A stretch of DNA of 24,870 nucleotides from a virus. The DNA is taken from IMG/VR virus record IMGVR_UViG_3300030107_001376, positions 8,751 to 33,620 of that record, one strand, 5' to 3'. Below the pieces are notes generated by a model. The model searched no databases. It was not told where the DNA came from and worked only from the letters and a program-made list of their open reading frames with translations. This document shows, piece by piece, positions 3,080 to 24,870 of the stretch. Positions within the stretch are counted from its first letter, which is position 1. Every line of letters begins with the position of its first letter. The position numbers were made by a program, and so were the translations under genes.

Positions 3080-3115
3080 AAAGGTGGGTAGTGGTTTTCT
3101 CTGCTACCTGCCTTT
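3080..3115. terminator. Hairpin between convergent gene blocks, candidate bidirectional terminator
   Basis: The arms AAAGGTGGGTAG (3080-3091) and CTACCTGCCTTT (3104-3115) form a 12-base-pair stem with two G-T wobble pairs and a 12-base loop. It sits exactly where the + strand and - strand blocks meet, and its right arm contains the stop codon (TAG, 3104-3106) of the 936-residue gene. There is no clear T-run after the stem on either strand, so it is not a textbook intrinsic terminator. The position still argues for a role in ending or protecting transcripts. Confidence 0.5.
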
Positions 3116-5914
3116 AGATTGTAATTCAGATTCCATTCTTTTCAAACTTTGATAAACTCCAAAAGGAAGGTTTCTTTTACCCTTGATTGCTTTTTGCTTT
3201 TTTGATTCAAAAACTTCTGGTACAACTTTCTTCCATATATTATCATCTTCTTTTCTTGGATAAATTCCCAATTCTTGTTGAGCTGCCATACCAATATGAC
3301 CTTTCATTAACATAGGAATATGTCTATCAGTTGCTCTTTGGGCAAAGGTATTAAGTATCTTTAATTTTCTACCAGTATCAGACAAATTAGTATCGTTTGT
3401 GTATGAATCTACTCCAATTAACATATCGGTAATTCCTTCAAAATCAGCATTTATTAGGTCAAGTCCAATTCCAATATCAAGAGCATCGCTTAATAATGGT
3501 CCTCCAAATGTTGATATAAGAGCTCCTTTGCCATAAAATGCTTTTTTAACTTCTTCTTCATCACCAGTAAACAAAGTGGCCCATTGCTTTAATCTATCCC
3601 AAGTGTCATGTTGAACAAGGTTATCAAAATTTGTTCCCAATATAGCTGCTAATGCAACTGGAGCCATAAAGTATGCAATAGCCATTCTTGTTGCTTTGTG
3701 CATACCCTCAGCGTCTTTAAAACTGAAATCTTTATCCTTTCTAAATGAAGACCAATCCCCACCAGCTTCTTTAGCTATACTAATATTCTTTTCAAGAAAT
3801 TCCATTCCATAATGTTGAAATTGAAACATAAATCTTCCAATATTCTTTGGACCTCCCCTCATAAACTTTGCTTTTGCATAATCACCATAATCAAAATGAT
3901 TTGCTATGACCATGTTCTTTGCATAGTTAGAAGCGATTTTTTCCATACCAACTTTTATTTTAGACTCACGTTCAGTATCAGACAATTTTTCATACTTCTT
4001 AGCCATCTTTGCTTGATATGCTGTACTTGTTCTTAAAAGGTTATGCATTTGACCAAAAGCAATCTTAAAAGTATGCTTTCTGTTGCTGTTTTCTACTTTT
4101 CTATGAAGCACAGATGCGTAGCTTGCCATTTTAGATGTAGCTCCAGAAAATTTTGATAAACGAGATTCTTTATTATATGTTATTTTGCCATTTTCATCAA
4201 TAGTTCTAAGCTTATATAAAGATGGAGATGTTTTAACTGTACTTTCTAAAAGTTCTGGTGTAGTATCTTCAAATAACAATCCAGCTTCTTTTAATATATT
4301 TTCAATTTGAGACTCCACATCATCCCCAAATAATCCTTTTTGCTCAAGTTCCCGATTGGCAACTCTAGATATACGTCTTCCAAATTGGACAAAATCCAAC
4401 AATCTTTGAGTAGCATTTCTTACAGCTGAACGAGGATTGATACCAATTTTTGAAGTAAACTCAAATGCTAACAATGACCTCATTATTGCTTGACCATTTT
4501 CACCAAGTTTACTATTACCATTAGCAGCTTCATGTAGGTCTATTATTAAATCAGAAACATTTTTTGCATAATTGGAATCTTCGCCATTTCTATAAATATC
4601 GTGAACTTTATTACGAGCATTTACCAATACTTCATCCATAAATGCTGTTGTATTAAATCTATTTACATCATCAACATATCCTTTTACAACATCAATAAAG
4701 TTTCGTGAATATGCTAATTTTTCTTTTCTATTTCTTGATTTTGCATGATGTGTAATCCATTTGTTTATATCAGCTATAACACCATCAATATCTTTATCTT
4801 TTTTATTTTTAAAGTCATCAGAAGCTTCATCAAATTTTGCAAAATGAGGCATCAATCCATCCATATAAGAAGCATTTAAATCTCTTATGTAATGAGGGAA
4901 ATAACCATCTTCTTTATATGAAGGCATAATATCAGATATAAGTTTTTCTCTTAATTTTATAAGTTCGCCTTCAGTCTTGCTTTTAGCTCCTTTATTTCTT
5001 TGCACTTGAGCTATAACAGTATTAATTCTTTTTTCGATACCAGATTTTAAAGTACCATACATTTCATACATTAATGAATTATATTTTATAACAGCATCTA
5101 TTGTATTTCTATCAAGACCTTCTTTTTGAAAGAATCTTTGGTAATCAGAATCTTTTAATATGATTAATTTACCTTCGTCATATTTCTTTACATTATTTGC
5201 GTGTAGTTTTCTTTGTTTTGTAGTTAATGATTCATCTTTTGATAGTCTAACTTCTCTGTCATACTTTTCTTTAATTGCTATTGGCATTTTATTTTCAATA
5301 ATGCTTATAAAATCATCAAATATTTTTAAAGGTGATTTTGTAGTAAACTCAGATATTGCTTTTCTAGCAGCTGATATTGCTACATTATCTGCTTTATCTA
5401 ATGCTTTTATTAAATTTAAATCAAGTTTTCTATATTGTTTTTTTGCTTGTTCAAACTTTGCCTTTGACCATACGCCGTCAATTCCACCTGCAATCTTTAA
5501 TGATTCAATAATGTCGATTACTTTTCTTTCTGTTTCCAATGTTCTTTTTCTATCAGAATTAGATACCTTTTGCAAAGCACCTATTGTATATCCAACCGCT
5601 GGGTCTTTCTTTCCTAAAGCAGAACCAGACCAAAAACTTTTTAATGAAATATCTCCAGATTGTATTCTATCATTTAATTTATACAACTCTTTTGTGAACA
5701 TTTGTATTCTACCATTAGTTAAGAATCCAGAGTTGTTATCATCATATATAGCAAACTCCATTGGAACATAAAAGTCCCTTTCAAACAATCTCATAGCAGC
5801 TTCATAAGGGTCTTTAATATGTTTAAGGGTTTCTTTATCGTTAGCCCAATATTCGACAGCTTTTAAAAGAGATTTACCCTTTTTTAATCTATTGCAATCA
5901 ACAGCTTTAGCCAT
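3104..5914 (-). CDS. Large internal virion / DNA-ejection protein candidate
   Basis: A 936-residue protein with no enzyme motif that I recognise. The first 470 residues are charged and helical. The segment around 478-507 contains FTSKIGINPRSAVRNATQRL, which recalls the pattern KxGxNPRSAxRNxTQ that I associate with large phage internal or polyvalent proteins. Around 700-720 is GRFMFQFQHYGMEFLEKN. A hydrophobic stretch AIAYFMAPVALAAILG (about 741-756) could span or insert into a membrane, and a Gly-rich segment follows (LISTFGGPLLSDALDIGIGL). The gene starts directly after the TAA of the 2864-residue polymerase-like gene (TAAATG) and is last in the - strand block. By position and composition I infer a protein packed inside the virion and injected with the DNA, perhaps forming part of the conduit. 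Not proven by sequence. Confidence 0.65.
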   Translation of the reverse strand: MAKAVDCNRLKKGKSLLKAVEYWANDKETLKHIKDPYEAAMRLFERDFYVPMEFAIYDDNNSGFLTNGRIQMFTKELYKLNDRIQSGDISLKSFWSGSALGKKDPAVGYTIGALQKVSNSDRKRTLETERKVIDIIESLKIAGGIDGVWSKAKFEQAKKQYRKLDLNLIKALDKADNVAISAARKAISEFTTKSPLKIFDDFISIIENKMPIAIKEKYDREVRLSKDESLTTKQRKLHANNVKKYDEGKLIILKDSDYQRFFQKEGLDRNTIDAVIKYNSLMYEMYGTLKSGIEKRINTVIAQVQRNKGAKSKTEGELIKLREKLISDIMPSYKEDGYFPHYIRDLNASYMDGLMPHFAKFDEASDDFKNKKDKDIDGVIADINKWITHHAKSRNRKEKLAYSRNFIDVVKGYVDDVNRFNTTAFMDEVLVNARNKVHDIYRNGEDSNYAKNVSDLIIDLHEAANGNSKLGENGQAIMRSLLAFEFTSKIGINPRSAVRNATQRLLDFVQFGRRISRVANRELEQKGLFGDDVESQIENILKEAGLLFEDTTPELLESTVKTSPSLYKLRTIDENGKITYNKESRLSKFSGATSKMASYASVLHRKVENSNRKHTFKIAFGQMHNLLRTSTAYQAKMAKKYEKLSDTERESKIKVGMEKIASNYAKNMVIANHFDYGDYAKAKFMRGGPKNIGRFMFQFQHYGMEFLEKNISIAKEAGGDWSSFRKDKDFSFKDAEGMHKATRMAIAYFMAPVALAAILGTNFDNLVQHDTWDRLKQWATLFTGDEEEVKKAFYGKGALISTFGGPLLSDALDIGIGLDLINADFEGITDMLIGVDSYTNDTNLSDTGRKLKILNTFAQRATDRHIPMLMKGHIGMAAQQELGIYPRKEDDNIWKKVVPEVFESKKQKAIKGKRNLPFGVYQSLKRMESELQSKGR

Positions 5915-8900
5915 TTAACAATCCAATCCTTGTTTCATTTCATTAAATAATTCTTGACTAGTTTCTCTTACCATTAAACTTTCTTTAGCTTTAATTAAGT
6001 TAGCATCAAGAACAGATAATTGCCTAATTCTATCTAAAATAACTTTAGAAGATTTTTCAAGAGTTAATCCCTCTTCACCAGCTTTTGCTTCCATAAATTT
6101 GAATCCTCTTGACAACTTAAATGCTGGATGCTCTGTTATCTTTACTATATTATCAGTTCCATGTTCTCCGCTTTGCATAAAATCAATACCACTACTTATA
6201 AACTTTTGGAAATCAGCATCTAATTGCAATCTCATTCCCATATATTTATATGGATTTGTCAATGTATTTGATGATAATTCCACACTAATATTGTCTAATT
6301 CAGTTAAAAATTTATCAAATTCCTGACCTTTTCCTAAAGATTGATACATATTCTTATAAAAATCAAGAACAGAGTTATTTACTATTGATGTCGTATTGTA
6401 TGGCATATTATTTCTCATCCAAGAAAACTCTTCATAACTCTTTATTTGTCTTTCTAAATAAGGGTCAAAGCTTGCAAGTCCATATCTTTCACGATTTACT
6501 TCGCTTTCTCTTCTCATCATATGGTCACCTCTAAAGAACTTAGTATAATGACCTTCGGTACTTCTTAATATATTAAGCAATATTGGAGCATTCTCTTTTA
6601 TTTTCTGGACTTGAGCTTCATCATATACACCTGCGTCAATTAAATCATCATGCGTTCTTCTTCTACCATGAACTAAATCAGTTAAAAATCTAATACCTAG
6701 TTTATATCTATTAACATCTACATATGGGATTGATACGGCCCTATTTTTATACACTCCAACTTTTTTCTTATCTCTAGATGGTTCCATAAATGCCATTAAA
6801 AATTCCATGCCATGTTCATTTACTTTGCTATTAATGTATTTCATTTGCCATTCGTAAAAATCATCAGCATTGTAACTATTCAATATTTCAATATCTCTTT
6901 TTGTGAGAACTGATTTGTCTCCATATTGAGCTATTTCATTTATAAGTGATGTGTCTCCATATATACCGCTTCTTAATTTTTTTAATCTTTTTAAATCTTT
7001 TCTACCTTTATCATCAAGAGAAGTTTTAAAATCATCATATCTAGAAGCTCCTATAATTTCTGTTTTTAACAATGAATTGATTGTATTGAAATAAACAGTG
7101 GCATATTTTAAATCTGGGTCATTCTCAAGGTTTACAAATTCAATTTTTGTTAGGTCTTGATTTTTAAATGGAACATATTGACCATAATTATCACGAATTT
7201 CACCTTTTAATTTTTCTATAACGTACTTTATTCTTTTTATTTTTTCATTTTTCCACTTATAAGAGGCATTACTATTACCTATCTGTCTTATCTTTTTATC
7301 AAGATATTTAACTGTTCCAATTTTTTTATTTACTTGCAACACTTGTTTGACAAGGTCGTCACCAAATGCATCAGAATCTTTTACATTTGAATTTGACATC
7401 ATTTCAACATACCAATCATCTACTGCATCCATTGTTTCGTCTAAAATTGCCCTATCTTCGTTTTTAAATAAATCTGATTTTGCAATATTTACAACCATTC
7501 TATCTATATAAGAACCACTTTTACCCTTTGATATATTCTCGCCTTGACCTCTTATATATTCAAATAAATCATTTTTAAACTCAACTCTTTTCTTTTTCTT
7601 GTTGTAATCAAATCCAAATATGTCTTTTAATTCTTCATAATCTTTTCCTCTTAAAGCTCTTTTAGATGTAAGATTTTTCCAAACTCCAGACTCTAAATTC
7701 TTATTGAATCCTATAAATGTATTTGCTTGATTAATAAAAGAATCAAAATCTACACGTTGGCCTTCACCAGTATCAGCATAATGCTCTTTGCCAGTTACTT
7801 GAAGCAATGCGCTGTACTCAGAAATCATTTCTTTTATAATTGCTTTTTCAGCATTTGTAAGGTCTAAGTTAGATTCTCTATATTTTTTAGATGCTTTGTC
7901 ATAAGTTAATTTTTGAAATATCCTAACTCTTTTACCATCATTGTTAGCTCCTTTGTTATCAACAACTTCTTTAGCATCTCTGGTGGTAAATTCATTTGGA
8001 GCTATTGATTTTAATATTTCTGGAAATAAGAAATCATTTTTCCAAGAAAAAATATCACCAGCAATTTCAGGATTAAGTTGTCCATCACCATCAACGATGT
8101 ATTGCATTTCAAGAGCACTTCTCATAAAAAAATCTAGACTTCTATAATCAATAGTTATTAATTCTTTTTTTGCATTTTTAAATAATACACCGGGTCCGTC
8201 AACATTTCCTTGGTCATCTTCTCTTATAAAATCTTCCATAGATGCTCTATTTGTAGATAAGAAATTTTTATTTGAAAGATTATCTAAATAATTCAATTCT
8301 CTAGGAGTTTTTTGAACCATCCCAATAGCTTTCATATAAGACCTTGAATCGCCAACCATTTTTTCGACTGCTTTTGTTGATTCATTAGCTGTTAATCCAA
8401 AATGAAAATTACCCTTCATTTGTAGATTTGATGGGTCTATTGCTTGAACAAAGAATGATTGAGACCTTTTTATATGGTCAAAGAAATAATCATTGTGAGC
8501 AAAAAAGTAATCTATTTTATCAGCATCGTAATCACCTTCATAGACATTCACAATATCCATGCTATTTACCATAGCAGAATTACCATATCCCTCATCTAAA
8601 AATCCAGCTAATCCAAGCAATGTAATATCATTAGGTCTTGTTCTTGGATTTCTTCTTGATATAATGCCAAGTTGATATTTAGAGTCAACCTCATCCCCAG
8701 ATTGTTTTAAAATATCAAACACATCTTCAAGTGAAGACTTTGAAAGAATATCTCTAAATCTTTGTAGTTCTTCTTGTGGAATATCGTCATCTATTTTTGA
8801 TATATAATCATTGATAAATTCATCAACAGTAAATACTTTTTCATTATCTACAATACGGACTCCTCGACCTTCAAGTTTATCCAATGTTGATTTTCTTTCG

Positions 8901-11900
8901 TGATAAGGTAAAGCAATTTCACCTCTCATCAATAAATTACCTCTTTCATCAACTAATGTAGGTAGCAACCTAGAAGATTCATTATCATTAAAAGAGCTTA
9001 AGCTTTGTATCAAAGGAGCTTGTCCTCCATATCTTTTATTTTCTCCATTGTCATCAGTCCTATTGGTAAAACTCCTTGTATTATTCATAATGTTGTTAAT
9101 AAAAGCAGAATACAATTTATTCTTTACCATTCTATCGCTATAGCTCATTGGATTCGCATCTGGATGCGTTAAATAAAATAACATATTATTAATAGTGGAT
9201 ATGCTCATTGATGAATTATCAGTAGGTAGTTCACCATCACCAATCTCATCTATCATAAATTGTCTCATTGAAATTGGGTTTGTTAATATTTTTCTCATTT
9301 GTTCTAAAGCAAAATCTAGGTCCCCTTGCATTTCAGCAAGTTTTAAACCCGATTCTGCATTATCAAATAAATTTGCATCAGAAGGTGATTCTTTTGCAGT
9401 TGTTACAGATGCGTCTTTTTCAGGTTTAAATCCTATTGATTCTAAGGATATATTTCTTTTTTGACCTGCATTTAAAGAAACATTTGGCAAATCATTCCAT
9501 TTTGTATCATTTAATATGCTTGTATCAATTTTATCAACATCTGAAGAAACTTCTTCAAATACCTTAGCCCCACTTTTAGTAAGTAAAACATCTATTTTAT
9601 TATTGTTAAAAAACTCATCTAACTTTGGTTCATAAACAAATAATGTTTTGCCCAATAAAAGTTCCTTACCTTCCCCACTGGAAGATATAACAGGTTTAAT
9701 AGGATTTTTTGAATTTGGATTATGTCCCATAATTGCATGAGACTCCACCATCATTTCTTTTGATATAAAAGATATACTATCAAATGCAGTTGCTTTTTTA
9801 TGTGCGTTCCCCATAACATTTCTAAAAGACCAATTTCTTATTTGAGGATATTTTTCTTGATAATTTTTTATAACATCTTTCATTTCGCTTCTAAGCAAAG
9901 CACTTCCTTCATCATTCCATATAGAAACAGTATATGCATCTTTCTTCATTCTTTTTAATAATTCTTCAGATGCTTTATCTTTCTTATCGATTTGCCTTCT
10001 AGCAGTTATGACAGAGTATAAATATTCTTTACTTGGTCTTACGAAATTTTTTGTACCGACCAATTTTACTCTTTTTAATATTTTGGATACTTTTTCAGTA
10101 TCGGATTCATTTATTGTATCATATAATTTTTTATTAGTATTACTTCCAACCATTTTTTCAAGAACAAGATACCTAAGAGCTAATTCGTAATTTTCATTAC
10201 TTGAAGGAGTTTCATCTTCAGATGCTTTTTTAAATTCGGCATTTAAATCATCTAAAATCTTTTTATGATTTTTATTTATTATATTTTCTGGAGTAACATG
10301 CTTTTCATAGAAAGCCATAAATGTATCAGCAATTTTAGCTCTATCAGATGCTTTTACTATAATACTGTCCATTCCATTATACATTCTCATTTTTAATAAA
10401 CCTGTATCTGGAACAGAATATGCACCTGGAAAACCTTCAGCAATTCTATCATCTAAGTCTTCGACTCTTTGTATGTTTTTTAAATTACCAAGAGAATCAA
10501 ATCCGTAATTACCAAGTTGCTTTCTAACTTTTTCTTCTTGAGCGCTTATTGTTTTTTGCAACCATTCTGGTATATTTTGAGAAGAATCATCAAGATTATA
10601 CAACCTTGTTTCATGTTTATTAGTGAATGGATTGAATCCCCTTGCTAATACTTCTGTATTAAAAATAATAAGCTCAACATCCATTTCCTTAAAAAGATTT
10701 GTAATCTCATTTTTTTGCATATAATAAGGCTTATCTTCTACTCTAAGACCGTCGCTATGGATTCTCATTTCCTTACCAGTAACTATATTTCTTCTTGCAA
10801 ATACAATTTGAGTTATATCTTCAACAATTTCTTTTTGTTTTCTTCTTCCTAAATCTTTTAATGGTATTATTTCATTGTTTCTTTCAATAGCAGCTCTATT
10901 CATTAATCTTTTAATAGCATCTGCTCTAAAATATTGGTCTTCTGCAAGAGGGTCAAGGTCATCCTTAACTAAAGTATCAAATATTTCTTTTTGAGCTTCG
11001 GCTCCATGGTCTTTATAACTTTGATATATGGGGACATAATCAGATGAAAATGGTGAACGCATTTCAGGCTCTAGGAAAAGATATTTACTAAATAATTGTT
11101 GCATAGATATTGAAGGATTTTTTACAACATCATCAGCATCTCCTACGAATCTACCTTTTGAAAGATTTGCTTGTCTTTCATACTCTCTGTCAACATAATT
11201 ATCATCGTACCCTCTTCTGCTTAATATATTATCTACCTTTTCAAAATATTCATAAGCAACTTTTTCAGCGTCAATTTTTAAATCATAATTTTTATTTGTT
11301 GTAACAATACCAGCATTATGCAACCAAGTCATTATCTGTATTTGTGCTTGTTGACCATATTGTTGGATATAACTATGCATTTTACTTCTAACATTTGTCA
11401 ATCCATTGTTTTCCATAGCTTCAAACAATTCTGAAAGAACTATATTTTCTTCATTCGTATTTCTATTTGATTGAGCATTTCTAATTATTAAATCCAATTG
11501 CGCAGCTTCTTTACTATGTATGTTGATATATGAATCTTCTACAAGAATTAAACCTTTTGATTTATCTGCAATTGTTTCAATGAATCTATTATATTTAGCC
11601 GCAAATGTTGGGTCTTCTGGACTTGTTATTTTTCTTAGTATGAAATTGTTTTTACCAGTCTTTACATTAAATTCAGCTTTTCCATATGTACCATTTGTTT
11701 GCGTCATTACAAATTCAGCTTCAGATGGTTGTATATTTGTATTCTTCCATTTATCTGTATTGATTACTTGAATAACTTTTTGATGAAACCAGTCCCCTAT
11801 CTTATTTAAATCAAAACCTTCAACCTTTAAAAATTCTTCTAATGCTACAACATCATCTGGAGTTGTTTTTGTACTTGATTTAGATACCTCGTATCCACCA

Positions 11901-14509
11901 ACAGCAGTTTGTATAGCTAATACTTTTTGCAACTTTCTTCTAATGTCGGACTTGTCTGCATCAGTAAACCCATCTAAATCAATCTTTTCTACACCTTCTA
12001 TTAGTTTTCCATCATCAGTTAGAAGACCTGCATCTATTAATGATGTTGAAACTTCATCTTTCTTTGTATAGTCTTCTGAAAATATATTAATAACTCTTTT
12101 AGATGTTGACAATGCTTTGTTAGCCATTACAGATGGTAGGTAATCACCGTAATCAGAATATCTAAATTCTCTTGATATATTATCTTTTTGTTTAAATAAT
12201 TCATTTACAGATTTTTCTGATGACCTTATTGAATTATACAAATAAGATAATGTTTCTTCATTTCTAATTGTTGCTTGTTTCTCGGCTTGATTAAATGCAG
12301 AATCACCGAGAACAACACTTCCTCTTTGAATCATTTCATAACTATCAAGCATATTCTGTAATTCTTTAACTGCTTCAGCTCCAGATAAATCACCTAAATA
12401 ATCTAATTCTCCATTTCTTGCCTTTTCTTTAAGTTCTTTGCTTATTGTTATTATTTGAGGTACAATATATTTATCTGGTTCATTATTCAATGAACGAGTT
12501 GTTAATTTAGGAGCAAGGTCTGGAAATGATTTATTTACAAAATTACCAACTATTGATGTTAATTGAGCTTCAAAAGAAGCTGTATTGTCCATTATTTCTT
12601 GATTGTATTTCTCTTCAAAATCATTAACAGTTTCTACTTCTGTTAATTTTTTAAAATTCTTTATTAAATTTCTAGCTTCAGTAGCTCCTATTTCATCCAA
12701 TCCTTTTGAATGATTAAATGTTTCATTAACCATTTTAAGTATCTTTGGAAGCATTGGAAATGTTTCTCCCTGAGCCATAGCAACCTGCACAGACATTTCA
12801 CCTTCTGGAAGAGCATCGTTATTTATACCAGAATCATCATCACTTGCAAATCTATTTTCAATTAGATAATCTTTTAATTCAGCATTGTCTCTTACTAAAG
12901 CATTTCCAAATCTATTATTAGGTGAATCAAAACTTGATGAGTAATGAAAGTTCTTTACATCAAATCCTAATGTATTCAAACCGTCCCTTACTACATTAAT
13001 ATCTTTTCCTAAATCCCATTTTGCAGGATTGGCTTTTCTTTGGGTGTATGCGCCAATCATCATATTGCCTAATAAATCATAGTTATCCCAATCAACTCCA
13101 TACTGAGCTCCCATAACATTCATTTGAGCCCAATGAGCTGCATTAAATACTGCTCCACCTAAAAACATTCTCGGTAATGCTTTAACTGTGCTATTCCAAG
13201 ATTCTTTAGTAGACCATTTCATAAGGTCTCTACCAAATTGATTTTTTTCTTTATTTAAATAACCAACTACTTTGGATTTATATCCACCTTTAAAATCGTT
13301 TTGAATCTCTTCTCTAAGACTTTTTGCTCCCATTTTTCTATCATGTGGATGTTTTAATAAATCATATGTTTTTCCACCAATTACAACTTCAGTAGATTTT
13401 CCATTTCTAGACCTCATTTCACCCATAAATCTTAATCTTTCAGCTAATTCTTTGCGACTCATATTTTTATATGGATTTCTTCTAAAAATAGATTTCATTC
13501 CATCAAGAAAATCACGCCTACTATTTGCTATCTTACCTAAAGGTTTTAAATATTCAATAGATGATAATCCTACCCCAGTAAGAGCTCCTGCTCCAACTGC
13601 AATAGAAAAATTAGCCCAATTAAATTCTTGTTGTTTACCTCTCCACATCTCTTTGCCTTGATAAACTCCCTCCATAGCTGCGTCAATAAAACTAAATACA
13701 AATACATCGTTCAATGCTTGCCCAACAATTCTTCCTTTAGCTGTATTGCCATATAATTGTTTACCTAATTGCAACATATCTTGAACTGGTACGCCTTTTT
13801 CTGCAACTTTTTTTGTCATTTCTCTAAGAGCTTTTGCCTCAGAGCTTTTTAATGTGCCAGTCGCAAGTCCAGCTTTTATTTGTAGGTCTACTTCTCTAGA
13901 TAAACTTTTTCTAAATGTCTTAGCTGTTAATTCAGCATTATTAGCGTTTCTTGCAATAGTCCCACTAATATCTTTTTTAAATAAATTTATTGTCTTTTTA
14001 TCTATTCCAGCTTTTTTACCAGCTTTTGTAAATTCTTTTAGTACAGCAGATTCAGATGACTTTCCAAATGCTTTTGAAACAAGTGGTAATATAGTTTTCC
14101 CAGCTACTCCCCTAGCTACTTTTAAAGGAGCTCCTTGAACATACCCAAGAACAGAACCTGCCATTCCAGCAAGTCTAGCTTCTGGGGATTCTAAATCAAG
14201 AACCTCTTCTTTTATATATTCTTCAGTACCGGGAGATATTAAATCAGCTAAAACACCAGCAAGTCCAAGACTTCCAGTATCTACAGCTTGATAAGCAAAT
14301 GAACCTAAAGCATTCCAAGCGGATACTTTATCTTCGCCTATTATTTGTTGTTGCTGAGATTCTGCAAATGATTGAAGGTCTGGAGTAGAAAATGTATCAT
14401 CAGATAAAGGTTTTCTTTCTGGTGAGAAATCAAAGTCAGTTTCAGATTGAAGCTGAGAGCCTGATGCTATTTTGTCATACAGGGATTTTTGAGTTTTTGT
14501 TAAAGACAT
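5915..14509 (-). CDS. Giant virion RNA polymerase (double-psi beta-barrel type) with N-terminal ejection-like region
   Basis: A 2864-residue protein. Residues 1-550 look like an ejection protein: Gly/Ala-rich hydrophobic segments at about 110-136 and 297-318 (NFSIAVGAGALTGVG) among basic helices. The catalytic signature is VYEGDYDADKIDYF with D1993, D1995 and D1997, the pattern D-[FY]-D-x-D-K. It corresponds to the metal-binding DFDGD of RNA polymerase beta-prime and the DxDxD of YonO, QDE-1 and crAss-like phage gp66. About 35 residues upstream is RRNPRTRPNDI (1952-1962), matching the NRxPTLHR segment at the same distance in beta-prime. A first barrel is suggested by AFDSISFISKEMM (1575-1587), PIKPVI (K1605) and TKSGAKVF (K1645, K1649). 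The gene starts directly after the TAG of the 415-residue gene, without a clear Shine-Dalgarno, so translation is probably coupled. Seen: motifs and spacing. Known: this family includes packaged phage polymerases. Inferred: injected with DNA to transcribe early genes. Confidence 0.72.
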   Translation of the reverse strand: MSLTKTQKSLYDKIASGSQLQSETDFDFSPERKPLSDDTFSTPDLQSFAESQQQQIIGEDKVSAWNALGSFAYQAVDTGSLGLAGVLADLISPGTEEYIKEEVLDLESPEARLAGMAGSVLGYVQGAPLKVARGVAGKTILPLVSKAFGKSSESAVLKEFTKAGKKAGIDKKTINLFKKDISGTIARNANNAELTAKTFRKSLSREVDLQIKAGLATGTLKSSEAKALREMTKKVAEKGVPVQDMLQLGKQLYGNTAKGRIVGQALNDVFVFSFIDAAMEGVYQGKEMWRGKQQEFNWANFSIAVGAGALTGVGLSSIEYLKPLGKIANSRRDFLDGMKSIFRRNPYKNMSRKELAERLRFMGEMRSRNGKSTEVVIGGKTYDLLKHPHDRKMGAKSLREEIQNDFKGGYKSKVVGYLNKEKNQFGRDLMKWSTKESWNSTVKALPRMFLGGAVFNAAHWAQMNVMGAQYGVDWDNYDLLGNMMIGAYTQRKANPAKWDLGKDINVVRDGLNTLGFDVKNFHYSSSFDSPNNRFGNALVRDNAELKDYLIENRFASDDDSGINNDALPEGEMSVQVAMAQGETFPMLPKILKMVNETFNHSKGLDEIGATEARNLIKNFKKLTEVETVNDFEEKYNQEIMDNTASFEAQLTSIVGNFVNKSFPDLAPKLTTRSLNNEPDKYIVPQIITISKELKEKARNGELDYLGDLSGAEAVKELQNMLDSYEMIQRGSVVLGDSAFNQAEKQATIRNEETLSYLYNSIRSSEKSVNELFKQKDNISREFRYSDYGDYLPSVMANKALSTSKRVINIFSEDYTKKDEVSTSLIDAGLLTDDGKLIEGVEKIDLDGFTDADKSDIRRKLQKVLAIQTAVGGYEVSKSSTKTTPDDVVALEEFLKVEGFDLNKIGDWFHQKVIQVINTDKWKNTNIQPSEAEFVMTQTNGTYGKAEFNVKTGKNNFILRKITSPEDPTFAAKYNRFIETIADKSKGLILVEDSYINIHSKEAAQLDLIIRNAQSNRNTNEENIVLSELFEAMENNGLTNVRSKMHSYIQQYGQQAQIQIMTWLHNAGIVTTNKNYDLKIDAEKVAYEYFEKVDNILSRRGYDDNYVDREYERQANLSKGRFVGDADDVVKNPSISMQQLFSKYLFLEPEMRSPFSSDYVPIYQSYKDHGAEAQKEIFDTLVKDDLDPLAEDQYFRADAIKRLMNRAAIERNNEIIPLKDLGRRKQKEIVEDITQIVFARRNIVTGKEMRIHSDGLRVEDKPYYMQKNEITNLFKEMDVELIIFNTEVLARGFNPFTNKHETRLYNLDDSSQNIPEWLQKTISAQEEKVRKQLGNYGFDSLGNLKNIQRVEDLDDRIAEGFPGAYSVPDTGLLKMRMYNGMDSIIVKASDRAKIADTFMAFYEKHVTPENIINKNHKKILDDLNAEFKKASEDETPSSNENYELALRYLVLEKMVGSNTNKKLYDTINESDTEKVSKILKRVKLVGTKNFVRPSKEYLYSVITARRQIDKKDKASEELLKRMKKDAYTVSIWNDEGSALLRSEMKDVIKNYQEKYPQIRNWSFRNVMGNAHKKATAFDSISFISKEMMVESHAIMGHNPNSKNPIKPVISSSGEGKELLLGKTLFVYEPKLDEFFNNNKIDVLLTKSGAKVFEEVSSDVDKIDTSILNDTKWNDLPNVSLNAGQKRNISLESIGFKPEKDASVTTAKESPSDANLFDNAESGLKLAEMQGDLDFALEQMRKILTNPISMRQFMIDEIGDGELPTDNSSMSISTINNMLFYLTHPDANPMSYSDRMVKNKLYSAFINNIMNNTRSFTNRTDDNGENKRYGGQAPLIQSLSSFNDNESSRLLPTLVDERGNLLMRGEIALPYHERKSTLDKLEGRGVRIVDNEKVFTVDEFINDYISKIDDDIPQEELQRFRDILSKSSLEDVFDILKQSGDEVDSKYQLGIISRRNPRTRPNDITLLGLAGFLDEGYGNSAMVNSMDIVNVYEGDYDADKIDYFFAHNDYFFDHIKRSQSFFVQAIDPSNLQMKGNFHFGLTANESTKAVEKMVGDSRSYMKAIGMVQKTPRELNYLDNLSNKNFLSTNRASMEDFIREDDQGNVDGPGVLFKNAKKELITIDYRSLDFFMRSALEMQYIVDGDGQLNPEIAGDIFSWKNDFLFPEILKSIAPNEFTTRDAKEVVDNKGANNDGKRVRIFQKLTYDKASKKYRESNLDLTNAEKAIIKEMISEYSALLQVTGKEHYADTGEGQRVDFDSFINQANTFIGFNKNLESGVWKNLTSKRALRGKDYEELKDIFGFDYNKKKKRVEFKNDLFEYIRGQGENISKGKSGSYIDRMVVNIAKSDLFKNEDRAILDETMDAVDDWYVEMMSNSNVKDSDAFGDDLVKQVLQVNKKIGTVKYLDKKIRQIGNSNASYKWKNEKIKRIKYVIEKLKGEIRDNYGQYVPFKNQDLTKIEFVNLENDPDLKYATVYFNTINSLLKTEIIGASRYDDFKTSLDDKGRKDLKRLKKLRSGIYGDTSLINEIAQYGDKSVLTKRDIEILNSYNADDFYEWQMKYINSKVNEHGMEFLMAFMEPSRDKKKVGVYKNRAVSIPYVDVNRYKLGIRFLTDLVHGRRRTHDDLIDAGVYDEAQVQKIKENAPILLNILRSTEGHYTKFFRGDHMMRRESEVNRERYGLASFDPYLERQIKSYEEFSWMRNNMPYNTTSIVNNSVLDFYKNMYQSLGKGQEFDKFLTELDNISVELSSNTLTNPYKYMGMRLQLDADFQKFISSGIDFMQSGEHGTDNIVKITEHPAFKLSRGFKFMEAKAGEEGLTLEKSSKVILDRIRQLSVLDANLIKAKESLMVRETSQELFNEMKQGLDC

Positions 14510-22400: not shown

Positions 22401-22620
22401 GTTTGTCTGAACCAAATACAAATAATCCATTATTTGAAACAGTTAAAGAAGCTACTCCTTGGTCCGATTCACTAACGGAACCTAAAGTTTTTATTCTACC
22501 AACAGAATCTATACTAACATCTATTAAAGAAGGTGATTCTATATCTTGTATATCTCTGGGGTCAGTATCAGAACTAATGCCTCCATGATAACCTTGAATT
22601 TTATATGTTCTCTTAGGCAT
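19456..22620 (-). CDS. Large beta-rich tail protein (tail hub or stabilisation type)
   Basis: A 1054-residue protein. The N-terminus YKIQGYHGGISSDTDPRDI...SIDSVGRIKTLG (6-46) resembles the opening of many podovirus structural proteins, in which the chain declares a list of DPRDI...G-x-I-K/R-xx-G. The rest is Gly/Ser/Thr/Asn-rich beta structure. The central blocks KLEEYADRILQFKQNSMYVI (about 753-772) and TDFGIAWFNKHGVYFYDGK (about 795-813) look like beta-propeller blades. The C-terminus (KIYKVYVTYKTGG...FEINDISIVYRTK) is a beta-sandwich-like ending that I associate with phage tail proteins. P22 gp10 or a tail-hub homologue is a possible counterpart, but no motif proves it. GAAGGAA precedes the ATG, which overlaps the upstream gene by 8 bases. 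A virion protein is secure; the exact role is not. Confidence 0.68.
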   Translation of the reverse strand: MPKRTYKIQGYHGGISSDTDPRDIQDIESPSLIDVSIDSVGRIKTLGSVSESDQGVASLTVSNNGLFVFGSDKQLDGGDAQENLIVSWDDGGNTFDVKDSEGWNMAEIGGTVGYGSGNNFNSENIVYYANDGILRIGDADFHSTTGTYNNQWFGYIEGNKFSGLNATTGSLAKPEITSVTCTSDSSDSLNGKYFDIYGAGGKTEVWIDNDNSGTSAPSGSGSYAQTIEVTEVETNDTAEAVAIAVAEAIGDHADFSTEVIGRVVLITDSANASRTNSSDGDTGFIVTTLQEGASSGTTANIGWYLSKQDIESPFGGICIISNPETGTAGNTVNDDTAEYDGTIADNNGTISVNAVNLRVGLQYTSIEANDAANYGTSYAGTGSASNDVTLYPLLGNNNVDIAAGSGSYAYSLVTKSIDYTISEEQSSVVGFYITEAEWNDISKVEIQHTETTSGEHMWNVFTKADIVPDCWNLLVSSLSNIDRGEASGVGLDSWYIWVYDTVSGTPAYTLSGPVIVKNSGLEGFQEGTYTFHYTWLYDERKQESLPSKFWEKASAVGLDGSEGSHPNKINVLGGSVLFNFDCYVCPGDASNNYGISKRISGSRLYWKMEGNDDYFLIGELDFEENGFKWLPEGDKMAYVMKNSSNSGDAHLASCALVQGIKPISANIIDTYKNINGYSSSIGSITAKYKTAVVHGRRTYIGNIRQITKNYYNSIWSSKDYPDRIIKSEINKFDVFPENANAIDVVINDGESIVKLEEYADRILQFKQNSMYVINVAENVEFLEDTFRNKGCSYPYHVVKTDFGIAWFNKHGVYFYDGKQVLNLLEKGGMRLISESDWKAFITDGEDGSSDDADMSSAHIAYIPNKRQLLINNENKDVFIYDFVLRAWMKGSSKITTTTKRSNFVLLNEDLIYITQNADTTSDININTWNPDAASSTAFVYQTKDIDFGEPGVRKKIYKVYVTYKTGGATNVQVKYDVDGGTAFNKTFQDGTNFASNELGNAGSGAWTQAILKPSTSSEANNKYSFAIKFTTDGAVPSTFEINDISIVYRTKTVR

Positions 22621-22858
22621 TTCCTTCTTCGTATTCTATGTCGCTTATAATATTATTTTGAGCATGCTCTGGAAGTTCGCATACACTACAATCACTTTCT
22701 GAAAAATCATATTCAGAGTTCTCATCGTGGTCAAATACGTCTATGCGCAATCCACCTTCAGAACCTTCAATTCTCCCACCGTTTCTTACTCGTAGCTTTT
22801 GGTTGATGGATTCCTGTAAGGAATCATCTTGTTCAATATATCTCGGCGCTTTTGACAT
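22613..22858 (-). CDS. Small acidic CxxC protein, unknown
   Basis: An 81-residue protein starting at the ATG at 22858 (MSKAPRYIEQ). A GTG three codons upstream (22867) is open too, but the AAAGGAG Shine-Dalgarno at 8 bases before the ATG decides the start. The C-terminal half is strongly acidic (DVFDHDENSEYDFSESD) and contains CSVC. It overlaps the preceding 58-residue CxxC gene by 73 bases in another frame and the 1054-residue gene by 8 bases. An in-frame TTG further in would avoid the overlap, but its ribosome site is weaker. Function unknown. Confidence 0.55.
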   Translation of the reverse strand: MSKAPRYIEQDDSLQESINQKLRVRNGGRIEGSEGGLRIDVFDHDENSEYDFSESDCSVCELPEHAQNNIISDIEYEEGNA

Positions 22859-22962
22859 CCTCCACACTCCTTTATTTTGCCACGAGTGACAGTTTTAATT
22901 GCTCGGCTAACTGTGTCACCTAAACCTTTATCATGCCCAAATAAATCTACTCGCTTAGACAT
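22786..22962 (-). CDS. Small CGGC protein, possible zinc knuckle
   Basis: A 58-residue protein, too short for usual cutoffs. It starts at ATG 22962 in a TAATG junction with the 101-residue gene, with AAAGG just upstream. The key segment is KECGGCQKRRDILNKMIP (residues 31-48): a CxxC followed by KRR and a short helix. The form CGGCxxRRxxLNxxxP recurs in many small phage proteins as far as I recall, so I take it as a real gene rather than a chance ORF. Its last 73 bases lie inside the start of the 81-residue gene. Role unknown; a single CxxC could complete a metal site only as a dimer. Confidence 0.7.
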   Translation of the reverse strand: MSKRVDLFGHDKGLGDTVSRAIKTVTRGKIKECGGCQKRRDILNKMIPYRNPSTKSYE

Positions 22963-23267
22963 TAGTAACCTTTAGGGCCGCTTTTAGCTTGTCTTTTTAA
23001 TTTTCTTTTCATTCTCCAATTTTTAGATTCAGCCATATCCCACATTATTTTATCTTGCTCTGCTTTTGAAGAAGTCCCAGCTTTTTGAGTTTTAGGTTTG
23101 TAATCTCTGCAAGCAGCTGCGCTTGAATATCCTAATTTCTTCCATTCTTTTGCACATTTTTCTTTACTTGGCATATTATGTTTCCTCCTGCCTCCACCTG
23201 TTTTTAATTGACTACCTTTGCCTGTGTCAGGTGATGATACATCAGACATTCCAATTACGTCAGCCAT
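22962..23267 (-). CDS. Small basic protein, unknown
   Basis: A 101-residue protein, Lys/Arg-rich and low in hydrophobic residues. The N-terminus is Gly/Ser-rich and probably disordered. The middle has two cysteines in CAKEWKKLGYSSAAACRDY, and the C-terminus is a basic helix (NWRMKRKLKRQAK). The ATG overlaps the TAA of the 49-residue gene upstream (TAATG), and the gene ends in TAATG with the CGGC gene. Not recognised; the charge suggests nucleic acid contact, which is inference. Confidence 0.6.
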   Translation of the reverse strand: MADVIGMSDVSSPDTGKGSQLKTGGGRRKHNMPSKEKCAKEWKKLGYSSAAACRDYKPKTQKAGTSSKAEQDKIMWDMAESKNWRMKRKLKRQAKSGPKGY

Positions 23268-23416
23268 TATAATCCCATTCTACCAGACAATTTATCCAAT
23301 TTTGTTTTTACAGATTCTAATTCTTCTAATAAATATACAATTGCTTCTTGACATTCTTTTAATTCATTAGATTTTTTAGGAACAGCCTTAGTTAATTTCT
23401 TTTTAGATTCTGGCAT
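23267..23416 (-). CDS. Small coiled-coil protein, unknown
   Basis: A 49-residue protein, in a frame bounded by TAATG at both ends (23416 start, 23267 stop). A Lys-rich N-terminus (PESKKKLTKAVPKKS) leads into an amphipathic helix (EAIVYLLEELESVKTKLDKL) with Leu/Val heptad spacing, fit for dimerising. GGAAG lies before the start. The exact overlaps on both sides support a real gene despite its size. No function can be given. Confidence 0.55.
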   Translation of the reverse strand: MPESKKKLTKAVPKKSNELKECQEAIVYLLEELESVKTKLDKLSGRMGL

Positions 23417-23613
23417 TATTTACTTCCAAATACTTTTGAAAAAAAGCCTTTCTTTTTCTTTTTACCTTTTACAGCTAATTTCTTGCCTTTCTTTTTTTTC
23501 TTCTTAACATCTTCCATGTTGTAAGCCATTGCATTGTATGTAGGATGAGTAGTTGGCTTTACCTTTACGCTATCTGCATCCATGAGCATTATTGTTAATA
23601 ATATTGATAACAT
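23416..23613 (-). CDS. Small protein with hydrophobic N-terminus and poly-lysine tail
   Basis: A 65-residue protein. I start it at the ATG at 23613, which is 9 bases after an AAGGGG Shine-Dalgarno and one base after the upstream TAA; the ATG at 23634 would place that site inside the gene. Residues 1-11 (MLSILLTIMLM) are hydrophobic, short for a full membrane span but possible as a signal or anchor. The C-terminal half has two lysine clusters (VKKKKKKGKK and KGKKKKKGFF). Such a tail could bind membranes or nucleic acid. Unknown function. Confidence 0.55.
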   Translation of the reverse strand: MLSILLTIMLMDADSVKVKPTTHPTYNAMAYNMEDVKKKKKKGKKLAVKGKKKKKGFFSKVFGSK

Positions 23614-23614
23614 T

Positions 23615-23842
23615 TTATTTCCCCTTAAATACACCTTCTAATATATCTGTTACTACATCAACAACTTTTTCAAAAAAGATTTGTTCTTTTTCTTCAGATA
23701 CAAATGGTATATCAATACGTTTATTAATTGCACTAGCAATTTTTTCTGTCATTTCATCAGAACCAAGATGTTTAACAGCTTCTTCTTGCATTTTAGCCGC
23801 TTGTGCTTCTGCTAGGTCAACTAACATTTTCTTTAAGTCCAT
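23615..23842 (-). CDS. Small helical phage protein, unknown
   Basis: A 75-residue protein in two parts: an Ala/Glu-rich helix (residues 1-30) and SAINKRIDIPFVSEEKEQIFFEKV (about 37-60), then a Val/Ile-rich helix to the end. The phrase INxxIDIPFxSEExE seems familiar to me from small phage proteins of unknown function, but I cannot name the family. A clear AAAGGAG Shine-Dalgarno precedes the ATG. One base separates it from the membrane protein upstream and one from the next gene. Probably cytoplasmic. Confidence 0.6.
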   Translation of the reverse strand: MDLKKMLVDLAEAQAAKMQEEAVKHLGSDEMTEKIASAINKRIDIPFVSEEKEQIFFEKVVDVVTDILEGVFKGK

Positions 23843-23843
23843 T

Positions 23844-23990
23844 TTAAGACTCCTTTATCTTTTTAGTTTTTAAATATAAATAATATATTTGTACTGCAAA
23901 CATTACACACATAAGTATGCCTGACAATAAATCTGTCCAATATACAAATCCTAAACTTGTACTTAATCCTGTTACTTTTAGACTATCCAT
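23844..23990 (-). CDS. Small single-span membrane protein, holin-like candidate
   Basis: A 48-residue protein with a TAATG start at 23990 overlapping the upstream gene, and a TAA one base before the next ATG. Residues 14-40 (FVYWTDLLSGILMCVMFAVQ and following) form one clear hydrophobic span, followed by a basic tail (KTKKIKES). A short N-terminus, one span and a positive C-terminus fit a small phage membrane protein such as a pinholin. No lysozyme gene is seen nearby to support lysis. Confidence 0.6.
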   Translation of the reverse strand: MDSLKVTGLSTSLGFVYWTDLLSGILMCVMFAVQIYYLYLKTKKIKES

Positions 23991-24232
23991 TAATTCACAC
24001 TCTGTGATTGTTTCACAGCTCCTTGACCGGGGTTAAAATAACTAATTGTTTGAGATTCTTGTTGTTGATTATAAATCATTTTTGAATATAATAAATCAAG
24101 ATGCCTAATAAGGCTTCTCACTTCTGGCATATGCAATACTAAATTGATTTGTTTAGATTGCTGAGGTTGTTCTTTTTTTTCAACATTCTTTTGCTTGTAT
24201 TGACTGTTATATATATCTGCTAAACTATTCAT
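23990..24232 (-). CDS. Small Gln-rich protein, unknown
   Basis: An 80-residue protein rich in Gln and Asn/Ser (KKEQPQQSKQ, NQQQESQ, VKQSQS), with a more ordered middle (VLHMPEVRSLIRHLDLLYSKMI) that could be a helix pair. No motif or membrane span. It starts inside the last codons of the 59-residue gene and ends in TAATG with the small membrane protein. There is no strong Shine-Dalgarno; translational coupling is likely. Function unknown. Confidence 0.55.
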   Translation of the reverse strand: MNSLADIYNSQYKQKNVEKKEQPQQSKQINLVLHMPEVRSLIRHLDLLYSKMIYNQQQESQTISYFNPGQGAVKQSQSVN

Positions 24233-24404
24233 TGTTCTTTAAATTTGATATTTCATCTCTTAATTTAGACATTTTTTCGTTATGTTCAATCTTCATTTCT
24301 AAAGCTTGCACTCTTAATTCCATTTGATACCATCCCCAAGCAATAGCTCCAATAACGCTAATGATATTAAAAATAAATTTTGCATCTAATTTAATGCCGC
24401 CCAT
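24225..24404 (-). CDS. Small membrane protein with coiled-coil tail
   Basis: A 59-residue protein below usual size cutoffs. Residues 9-25 (KFIFNIISVIGAIAWGW) are a membrane span and the remainder is a charged coiled coil (MELRVQALEMKIEHNEKM, then LRDEISNLKNN). It begins at ATG 24404, 14 bases inside the 105-residue gene, which has the same layout, and ends with TAG past the start of the Gln-rich gene. Two successive proteins with the same design suggest partners or a holin/antiholin-like pair; this is inference. Confidence 0.6.
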   Translation of the reverse strand: MGGIKLDAKFIFNIISVIGAIAWGWYQMELRVQALEMKIEHNEKMSKLRDEISNLKNNE

Positions 24405-24708
24405 TGATTCTGCTCATAGAGCCTTTTAATTCTGATACTTGATTATCAAGGTCATTTATTTCTTTAGTAATAGCATCAAACTTTCTATCTAGTTTATCAT
24501 CAGATTGGTTCCACCTGCCAATAAGTTTTATTACCATTCCTTCCATATTTTCTAATGTTTCACTTTGACCTTTGTTTTCAATTTTTAAACTTTCTAATGT
24601 TTCTTGTTGCTGTGCTGATTTATTTGATAAAGATACAACAAGATATACAAACATTGCCCCAACAACGCCTATCATTCCAGCTTCGCCATATAATGCCATA
24701 AAATCCAT
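24391..24708 (-). CDS. Holin-like membrane protein with coiled-coil tail
   Basis: A 105-residue protein. One strong hydrophobic, Gly-containing span lies near the N-terminus (GEAGMIGVVGAMFVYLVVSL, 9-28), followed by a long charged coiled coil (29-100) with Leu/Ile spacing. An N-terminal span plus a cytoplasmic coiled coil is seen in some phage holins and in other phage membrane proteins. The start is in TAATG with the upstream gene, with weak GAAG before it. There is no endolysin next to it, so the lysis role stays tentative. Confidence 0.65.
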   Translation of the reverse strand: MDFMALYGEAGMIGVVGAMFVYLVVSLSNKSAQQQETLESLKIENKGQSETLENMEGMVIKLIGRWNQSDDKLDRKFDAITKEINDLDNQVSELKGSMSRINGRH

Positions 24709-24870
24709 TACTTCTTCTTCTTTTTATTTGTTAGTTTTTGATACCATTTTAATTCTTCTTCCATTTCTTCATACCTTGCTTGTTCTTCTACGATATGCTT
24801 TTCAACAAGTTCGGTAATAGTTGTATTAGCGTCAGACATTTTTCTTTCTAATTCTGTAATTCTTTGAATA
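24708..24870 (-). CDS. Coiled-coil protein, partial at the window edge
   Basis: The C-terminal part of a protein whose frame is open to the right edge of the window. An ATG lies at 24839, but the residues before it (IQRITELERK) continue the same heptad pattern as those after it, so the true start may be outside. The visible 53 residues are acidic and helical (VEEQARYEEMEEELKWYQ) and end in NKKKKK. The stop is in TAATG with the 105-residue gene. Function unknown. Confidence 0.55.
   Translation of the reverse strand, partial: IQRITELERKMSDANTTITELVEKHIVEEQARYEEMEEELKWYQKLTNKKKKK

Follow-up and report, generated by a model that had tools for sequence, protein, structure and literature searches.

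A small basic phage protein with a leader related to the capsid N-terminal arm and a probable internal start

The late region of an uncultured virus of bacteria (IMG/VR record IMGVR_UViG_3300030107_001376) contains a chain of very small genes, one of which, o9 (22962–23267, minus strand), encodes a 101-residue protein that opens with a 31-residue leader (residues 1–31, 23175–23267). Profile searches with shuffled controls point to a relation between this leader and the N-terminal arm carried by the major capsid protein of related phages. Behind it stands a small basic, cysteine-bearing module that is exchanged between phages, and the exchange falls exactly at an internal Met codon preceded by a ribosome-binding-site-like sequence. 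The window analysed here is a stretch of 24,870 nucleotides, positions 8751–33620 of the 33,620-base record, whose right end is the end of that record; positions are those of the window unless a locus (L) is named. We give an even chance to the proposal that the arm copy recruits the small basic protein to the prohead, in the manner of the internal proteins of T4, using a tag taken from the coat protein.

Results

Homology of the o9 leader to the capsid arm is well supported

Relatives of the window were sought with a profile of the 1054-residue protein encoded at the end of the chain and its relative in L003, which led to 15 loci in viral contigs, one of them, L016, being the L003 contig again. 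The wider comparison set, searched with phmmer, comprised 7950 distinct open reading frames (ORFs) from 169 loci. Nine aligned relatives of o9 have residues 1–32 almost fully in common and share little behind them. Across 46 distinct ORFs the 31-residue leader is near-invariant, with a ratio of non-synonymous to synonymous substitution (dN/dS) of about 0.27 over 486 pairs.

Run against the 7950 ORFs, a profile built from six leaders recovered 46 small leader proteins at E-values of 7e-16 or better. Up to E = 2 the same profile also recovered 67 capsid-family ORFs (best 1.1e-7) and one other ORF, and most of the matches on capsids begin at residue 1. In the reverse direction, a leader-free profile of capsid arms (65 distinct arms from 76 capsids) found all 46 leader proteins, at E-values from 7e-10 to 0.27, and no further non-capsid ORF among the 7950 below E = 1, while 40 column-shuffled profiles found zero leaders at E ≤ 1. 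When 24 whole records were searched in six frames with the leader alignment, the only frames returned were leader frames of 79–98 residues, in five records, and frames of 499–541 residues, which is capsid length. On the strength of these searches and controls we take leader and capsid arm to be related, a homology that we regard as well supported. No two different leaders occurred together in any of 68 contig groups. Since the leader set was collected by patterns derived from the leader itself, more divergent leaders may be missed.

The arm alone is shared with the capsid: o9 has no Pfam match, and no capsid domain in its 101 residues. PHROG yielded no family for it, the matches being at chance level (E 0.018 to 0.077) and made by single members of a nine-sequence alignment, and a search of annotated phages with the leader protein gave no relative and one chance match at E = 7.

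The capsids whose arms match the leader carry the Pfam domain SU10_MCP (PF17236) in 43 of 43 cases. The capsid also matches a VP1 major capsid protein in the PDB (1.1e-6), and its gene stands after that for a P22-like portal. An AlphaFold model of the capsid was modest (pLDDT 58.7, pTM 0.58) and its fold matches had low template-modelling scores, so that the identity of the protein is taken from Pfam and gene order, by which the capsid is assigned to the SU10 type. The family is common in viral contigs, with 592 relatives among the first 600 pattern matches listed. Among annotated phages, one capsid found no match and a second found one weak match. In 84,980 species genomes the capsid was met in two contigs of metagenome-assembled genomes, titled Flavobacteriales bacterium TMED123 and Roseobacter sp. 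NP10, which are weak hints to a host, given binning. The 111-kb record G017 (L057, L116) has two capsid-length matches and one leader gene; it may join two phages in a single contig or come from a larger relative.

Basic modules are exchanged behind a conserved leader

Among the 46 complete leader proteins there are 44 distinct C-terminal parts, which fall into four clusters (19, 13, 11 and 1), and four leader sequences each pair with two different module clusters. In L009 the leader DNA is identical to that of the window, and the next 75 nt are 28% identical when compared without gaps. An earlier tally of 103 pairs of unlike modules behind like leaders was discarded as inflated by small insertions, and gap-aware clustering was used instead. 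The module of the window, type A, is fused to the leader in the window and in L004, and is a free ORF with its own ATG in L009 and L015. Similarly, module B is fused in L146 and free in L008, and further free ORFs at the same place (L007, L008, L010 and L017) are also basic and cysteine-bearing. All 44 distinct short forms are basic, with net charges of +6 to +22, and have at least two cysteines, and every leader gene found is in frame with its module.

Free small basic, cysteine-bearing ORFs were noted at L010:3979-4765, L008:2105-3096 and L007:1845-2745; one kind matches DUF6321 above cut-off, and the same domains occur within much larger PHROG proteins (phrog_727, phrog_3477 and phrog_10346). 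Separately, a short variant of the next gene, o10, of 33–34 residues (L013, L125 and L162), keeps the start (about 'NNIDLFGH') and ends differently, which again hints at exchange downstream of a conserved N-terminal part.

The junction resembles a translation start

Of 36 distinct leader DNAs, 35 have ATG as the codon behind the leader; L114 instead has GTT there, and its Arg pair is also without an AGG codon. Capsids mostly have Phe at this position. In the window the ATG lies at 23172–23174 and would open a probable short form of 70 residues with a net charge of +13 (22962–23174, minus strand), while the two Arg codons of the leader form AGGAGG, a Shine–Dalgarno-like sequence, at 23184–23189 on the same strand.

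The energy of pairing with the anti-Shine–Dalgarno sequence was computed for leaders, capsids, internal Met codons and the starts of large ORFs. Leaders had a mean of −7.3, with 35 of 35 at or below −5.5. As background, 5778 internal Met codons of 450 large ORFs had a mean of −1.6, with 7.9% at or below −5.5, and the starts of 408 large ORFs averaged −3.9. At the same place 76 capsids averaged −2.0, weaker than the −3.5 expected from synonymous choice. AGG makes up 13% of Arg codons in large ORFs as compared with 37 of 59 in leader tails, and the mean over 19 distinct amino-acid tails was reached in 0 of 20,000 synonymous simulations. The motif is kept through changes of amino acid (KRS, NRS, NRR and KRR), and the free modules have a Shine–Dalgarno sequence of their own at the same place. 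The ribosome-binding-site-like sequence at the internal ATG exceeds what the amino acids require. The internal start is well supported by computation and likely to be used, and an ATG with a Shine–Dalgarno sequence beyond background means that the gene probably makes both tagged and untagged products.

o9 lies in a conserved chain of small late genes

From 24869 to 22613 on the minus strand run one truncated ORF (o1) and ten complete ones (o2 to o11), followed by the gene for the 1054-residue protein. The last base of the window is the end of the record, so the chain runs on past it. A sequence-only reading of this stretch had counted ten ORFs; they lie where it had placed them, on the minus strand, and the number is eleven. 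Counting the last junction, to the 1054-residue gene, neighbouring ORFs meet in five 1-nt TAATG overlaps, across two 1-nt gaps (TAA-A-ATG), or in longer overlaps of 14, 8, 82 and 8 nt. Among the complete ORFs, the four short ones to which it drew attention are o3 (59 residues), o5 (48), o8 (49) and o10 (58). Its three membrane proteins correspond to o2, o3 and o5, each with a clear hydrophobic stretch (best 19-residue Kyte–Doolittle mean 1.6 to 2.1), and the highly basic ORFs that it mentioned include o7 (net +14), o9 (+15) and o10 (+8). Coiled coils in the chain were judged by eye alone.

That reading had also warned that default gene callers may drop the short frames. Prodigal has a minimum of 90 nt, which by itself would not discard them. 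Phage late genes are ordinarily small and tightly coupled, and the size cut-offs are not what is interesting about this region. The observation of the chain is confirmed and its interpretation partly supported; the leader of o9, its probable internal start and the exchangeable modules had been missed.

The short frames proved to be conserved and syntenic in related genomes, the point on which the first reading would have stood or fallen. A tblastn search found the small ORFs in the relatives that carry the 1054-residue gene, and the same general gene order appears in the ORF lists of L013, L015, L010, L004, L009, L012, L007, L008 and L017. Relatives detected by phmmer were present at 37 loci for o2, 11 for o3, 33 for o4, 27 for o5, 31 for o6, 7 for o7, 27 for o8, 47 for o9, 36 for o10 and 37 for o11; these counts are not frequencies, because many of the 169 loci do not span the array and identical ORFs were counted once. 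The median dN/dS relative to the window, from at most 40 matches per slot and after dropping pairs with few codons or an out-of-range dS, was 0.12 for o2, 0.29 for o4, 0.12 for o5, 0.46 for o6, 0.28 for o7, 0.39 for o8, 0.39 for o9, 0.16 for o10 and 0.35 for o11; the value of 0.59 for o3 comes from a relative set that mixes paralogues. The short frames are real and under purifying selection.

In the longer relatives the order is terminase, an endolysin-like ORF, the P22-like portal, an acidic ORF of ∼290 residues in the scaffold position, the capsid gene, several further ORFs, a gene whose product has a Peptidase_S74 chaperone domain, the small-gene chain and then the homologue of the 1054-residue gene. 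The tiny genes of this region belong to a late operon and lie between the head and tail genes and a large tail-side gene. We call the latter tail-side on gene order; the protein had no naming match in PHROG or Pfam.

Searches of PHROG, Pfam and the PDB with the small ORFs returned little besides a match of o10 to phrog_32048, a family of unknown function (E 9.1e-6), and weak matches of o2. Several of o1 to o5 look like membrane or lysis-side proteins. The truncated o1 (24708–24869) is cut by the record end; it has one hydrophobic stretch near its N-terminus, as do its 108-residue full-length relatives, which also have a likely coil, and an o1-like protein matches the Rz-like spanin family phrog_739 at E 0.013 only. 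o2 (24391–24708; 105 residues) has an N-terminal transmembrane segment and a likely coil and matches phrog_739 weakly (E 3.3e-4); its PDB matches look like helical-coil noise and were rejected. The layout of o3 (24225–24404), a transmembrane segment and a likely coil, resembles that of o1. There follow o4 (23990–24232; 80 residues), the small membrane protein o5 (23844–23990), the acidic o6 (23615–23842; 75 residues) and o7 (23416–23613; 65 residues from the ATG), which has a hydrophobic N-terminus and is otherwise Lys-rich.

Just upstream of o1, relatives have lipoprotein-like frames (L013:7430-7663, L015:6755-6988, L010:2742-2972, L007:204-446 and L009:639-734), with a lipobox-like motif judged by eye and a conserved C-x-x-GW mature start, which overlap the preceding ORF. 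Such a frame is a possible o-spanin that would form a spanin-like pair with o1. A relative of o7 (L009:139-327) precedes o1 rather than lying between o6 and o8 and resembles a signal peptide with a Lys-rich tail; it is conceivable that proteins of this type are cationic lysis peptides. At L019:13093-13943, between terminase and portal, an endolysin-like ORF (phrog_465, 6e-43) and a Lys-rich ORF of 156 residues stand apart from the other possible lysis genes.

o8 to o11 form the block directly before the large tail-side gene. o8 (23267–23416) is joined by a TAATG junction to the leader gene o9, and o10 (22786–22962) encodes a basic protein with a CxxC motif. Weak relatives of o10 occur in the annotated phages L024 (Nonlabens phage P12024S) and L025 (Podoviridae sp. 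ctfjg026), the one in P12024S shortly before the terminase gene. The acidic o11 (22613–22858; 81 residues from the ATG) overlaps o10 out of frame by 73 nt. This ATG is the more likely start than the GTG at 22867, which would give 84 residues, because the relative L117 has a stop between the two; AAGGAG at 22867–22872 precedes it. The ribosome site and start of o11 sit within the conserved Lys-Glu-Cys-Gly-Gly-Cys codons of o10, so that the stretch 22856–22882 is probably doubly used.

Elsewhere in the window, a giant protein of 2864 residues (5915–14509) is 96% identical in L003 and 32–35% identical in four other records, and a protein of 936 residues (3104–5914) had no significant match in PHROG or Pfam. 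Both are possibly internal or ejected virion proteins. The large virion-side proteins of the window that were searched in PHROG and Pfam (a scan that excluded the 2864-residue protein) found no naming match; annotated phages gave no match to the tail-side, 936-residue or capsid proteins at the limits used, and a DNA-level search of them gave nothing.

Discussion

We propose that o9 is a probable two-product gene. Its long form would be translated by coupling from o8 and would consist of a capsid-arm copy followed by a small basic protein that has two or more cysteines. Through the arm copy this form may dock at the prohead, where it would either replace a capsid arm or bind a partner that reads the arm; of such partners the scaffold-like protein, which is strongly acidic, would be the most likely. 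In three contigs the ORFs at the scaffold position carry net charges of −15 to −27. A basic, possibly DNA-binding protein would thereby be built into the head, while the internal ATG would yield the untagged module, the tag being kept and the module exchanged between phages. By analogy with P22 and T4, the long form is most likely directed to the prohead. Use of the internal start, docking, a place within the head and DNA binding are inferred.

The closest likeness is to the internal proteins of T4. The leader proteins, too, are small and basic, and behind a conserved N-terminal sequence their bodies vary. The T4 targeting sequence is cleaved off by the prohead protease, and we know of no description of it as a copy of a capsid arm. 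The internal proteins (IPI and others) are diverse and share only a capsid targeting sequence, and are likewise small and variable between related phages (PMC3012670). In o9, by comparison, it is the coat protein that the tag resembles, no genome was seen with more than one leader, and an internal start is probable; no sequence relation to the T4 proteins emerged via PHROG or Pfam. P22 shares with these phages the portal type, an ORF in the scaffold position and an N-terminal arm before the shell domain, and on the inside of its procapsid the coat arms contact the scaffold (PMC9965877). There the arm lies within the coat protein and its acidic residues meet basic residues of the scaffold, whereas in o9 an arm copy sits on another protein and the charges are reversed. 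A full-length and a separately translated C-terminal product from one gene are described for RpnL/RpnS (PMC10327210); these proteins are unrelated and have another role, while o9 opens with a capsid arm and its internal start is a prediction.

Several findings tell against the proposal. The window's own record ends before the capsid gene and contains none, so the relation between leader and capsid is taken from relatives. Both genes are present together in only 10 contigs. Leader type agrees with capsid type in all of these (six of one, four of the other), an agreement that can be plain shared descent and is not counted as proof. The match between leader and capsid is confident over a few dozen residues only, and 14 of 81 capsid ORFs score above E = 2 with the leader profile, their divergent arms matching weakly. 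Among 11 records longer than 40 kb in the six-frame search, five have a leader and six have a capsid with no leader match; the leader is therefore not required throughout the capsid family. (o10 follows the leader: among 14 records it is present in five of five with a leader and absent from nine of nine without.) For single tails, the Shine–Dalgarno excess reaches p below 0.05 in only 7 of 19, and the tails share descent. Finally, no prohead protease was recognized in the listed ORFs that surround portal and capsid in three contigs, which leaves a T4-like cleavage unsupported.

Could an arm-mimicking o9 instead regulate assembly, in its rate, size or scaffold release, with the basic module as an anchor or dimerizer? 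We give this a modest chance. The arm copy itself, as found by the profile searches, would suit such a role, and capsid relatives that redirect assembly are known: Ccm of SaPIbov5 is homologous to the capsid protein of phi12 (PMC8569155). Like o9, Ccm is a capsid-protein relative made beside the capsid protein, but it is a whole HK97-fold capsid protein, whereas o9 has the arm only, on an unrelated small protein, and is the phage's own (PMC8569155). A module that varies freely and yet is basic and cysteine-bearing in every distinct short form fits a variable payload better than a fixed regulator.

The leader could also be a relic, a piece of capsid gene that came to lie before the small genes and was kept as the ribosome site of the module and its translational link to o8. 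The Shine–Dalgarno-like site in the last codons of the leader and the equivalent site of the free modules speak for such an origin. A ribosome site needs the last codons only, however, whereas the leader is conserved as protein over its whole length, and all leader genes found have remained in frame with their modules; we consider this origin rather improbable.

That the leader is a decoy, distracting host defences that sense capsid protein, is very improbable. Bacterial defences that bind phage proteins exist. Many are described as binding a specific phage protein (PMC13423816), and the arm copy is the sole support for the idea here; the gene sits among late virion genes, and a decoy would have no need of a variable basic module. 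Chance likeness of low-complexity N-termini, in a chain that is as such an ordinary row of unrelated small late genes, can appeal to the shortness of the confident match and is scarcely credible, being already disfavoured by the reciprocal specificity of the profiles and the failure of their shuffled counterparts.

Prohead recruitment by the arm copy can be extended to a more specific and more tentative proposal, which we hold to be possible rather than probable: a copy of the phage's own coat arm would act as an exchangeable address tag, such that any small basic protein that comes to follow the last Met of the tag is incorporated into the head. The same codons would hold the ribosome site of the untagged form, so that a single gene would fix the proportions of packaged and free protein. 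The open-licence literature, in the portions available, held no earlier account of a capsid-arm copy on a small phage protein. If the proposal is true, the leader would be a natural, short and portable tag derived from a capsid arm, and its exchange between modules would offer a simple evolutionary route to new packaged proteins. The case also shows that short ORFs that belong to no family can be assigned by comparison with the virion proteins of the same phage.

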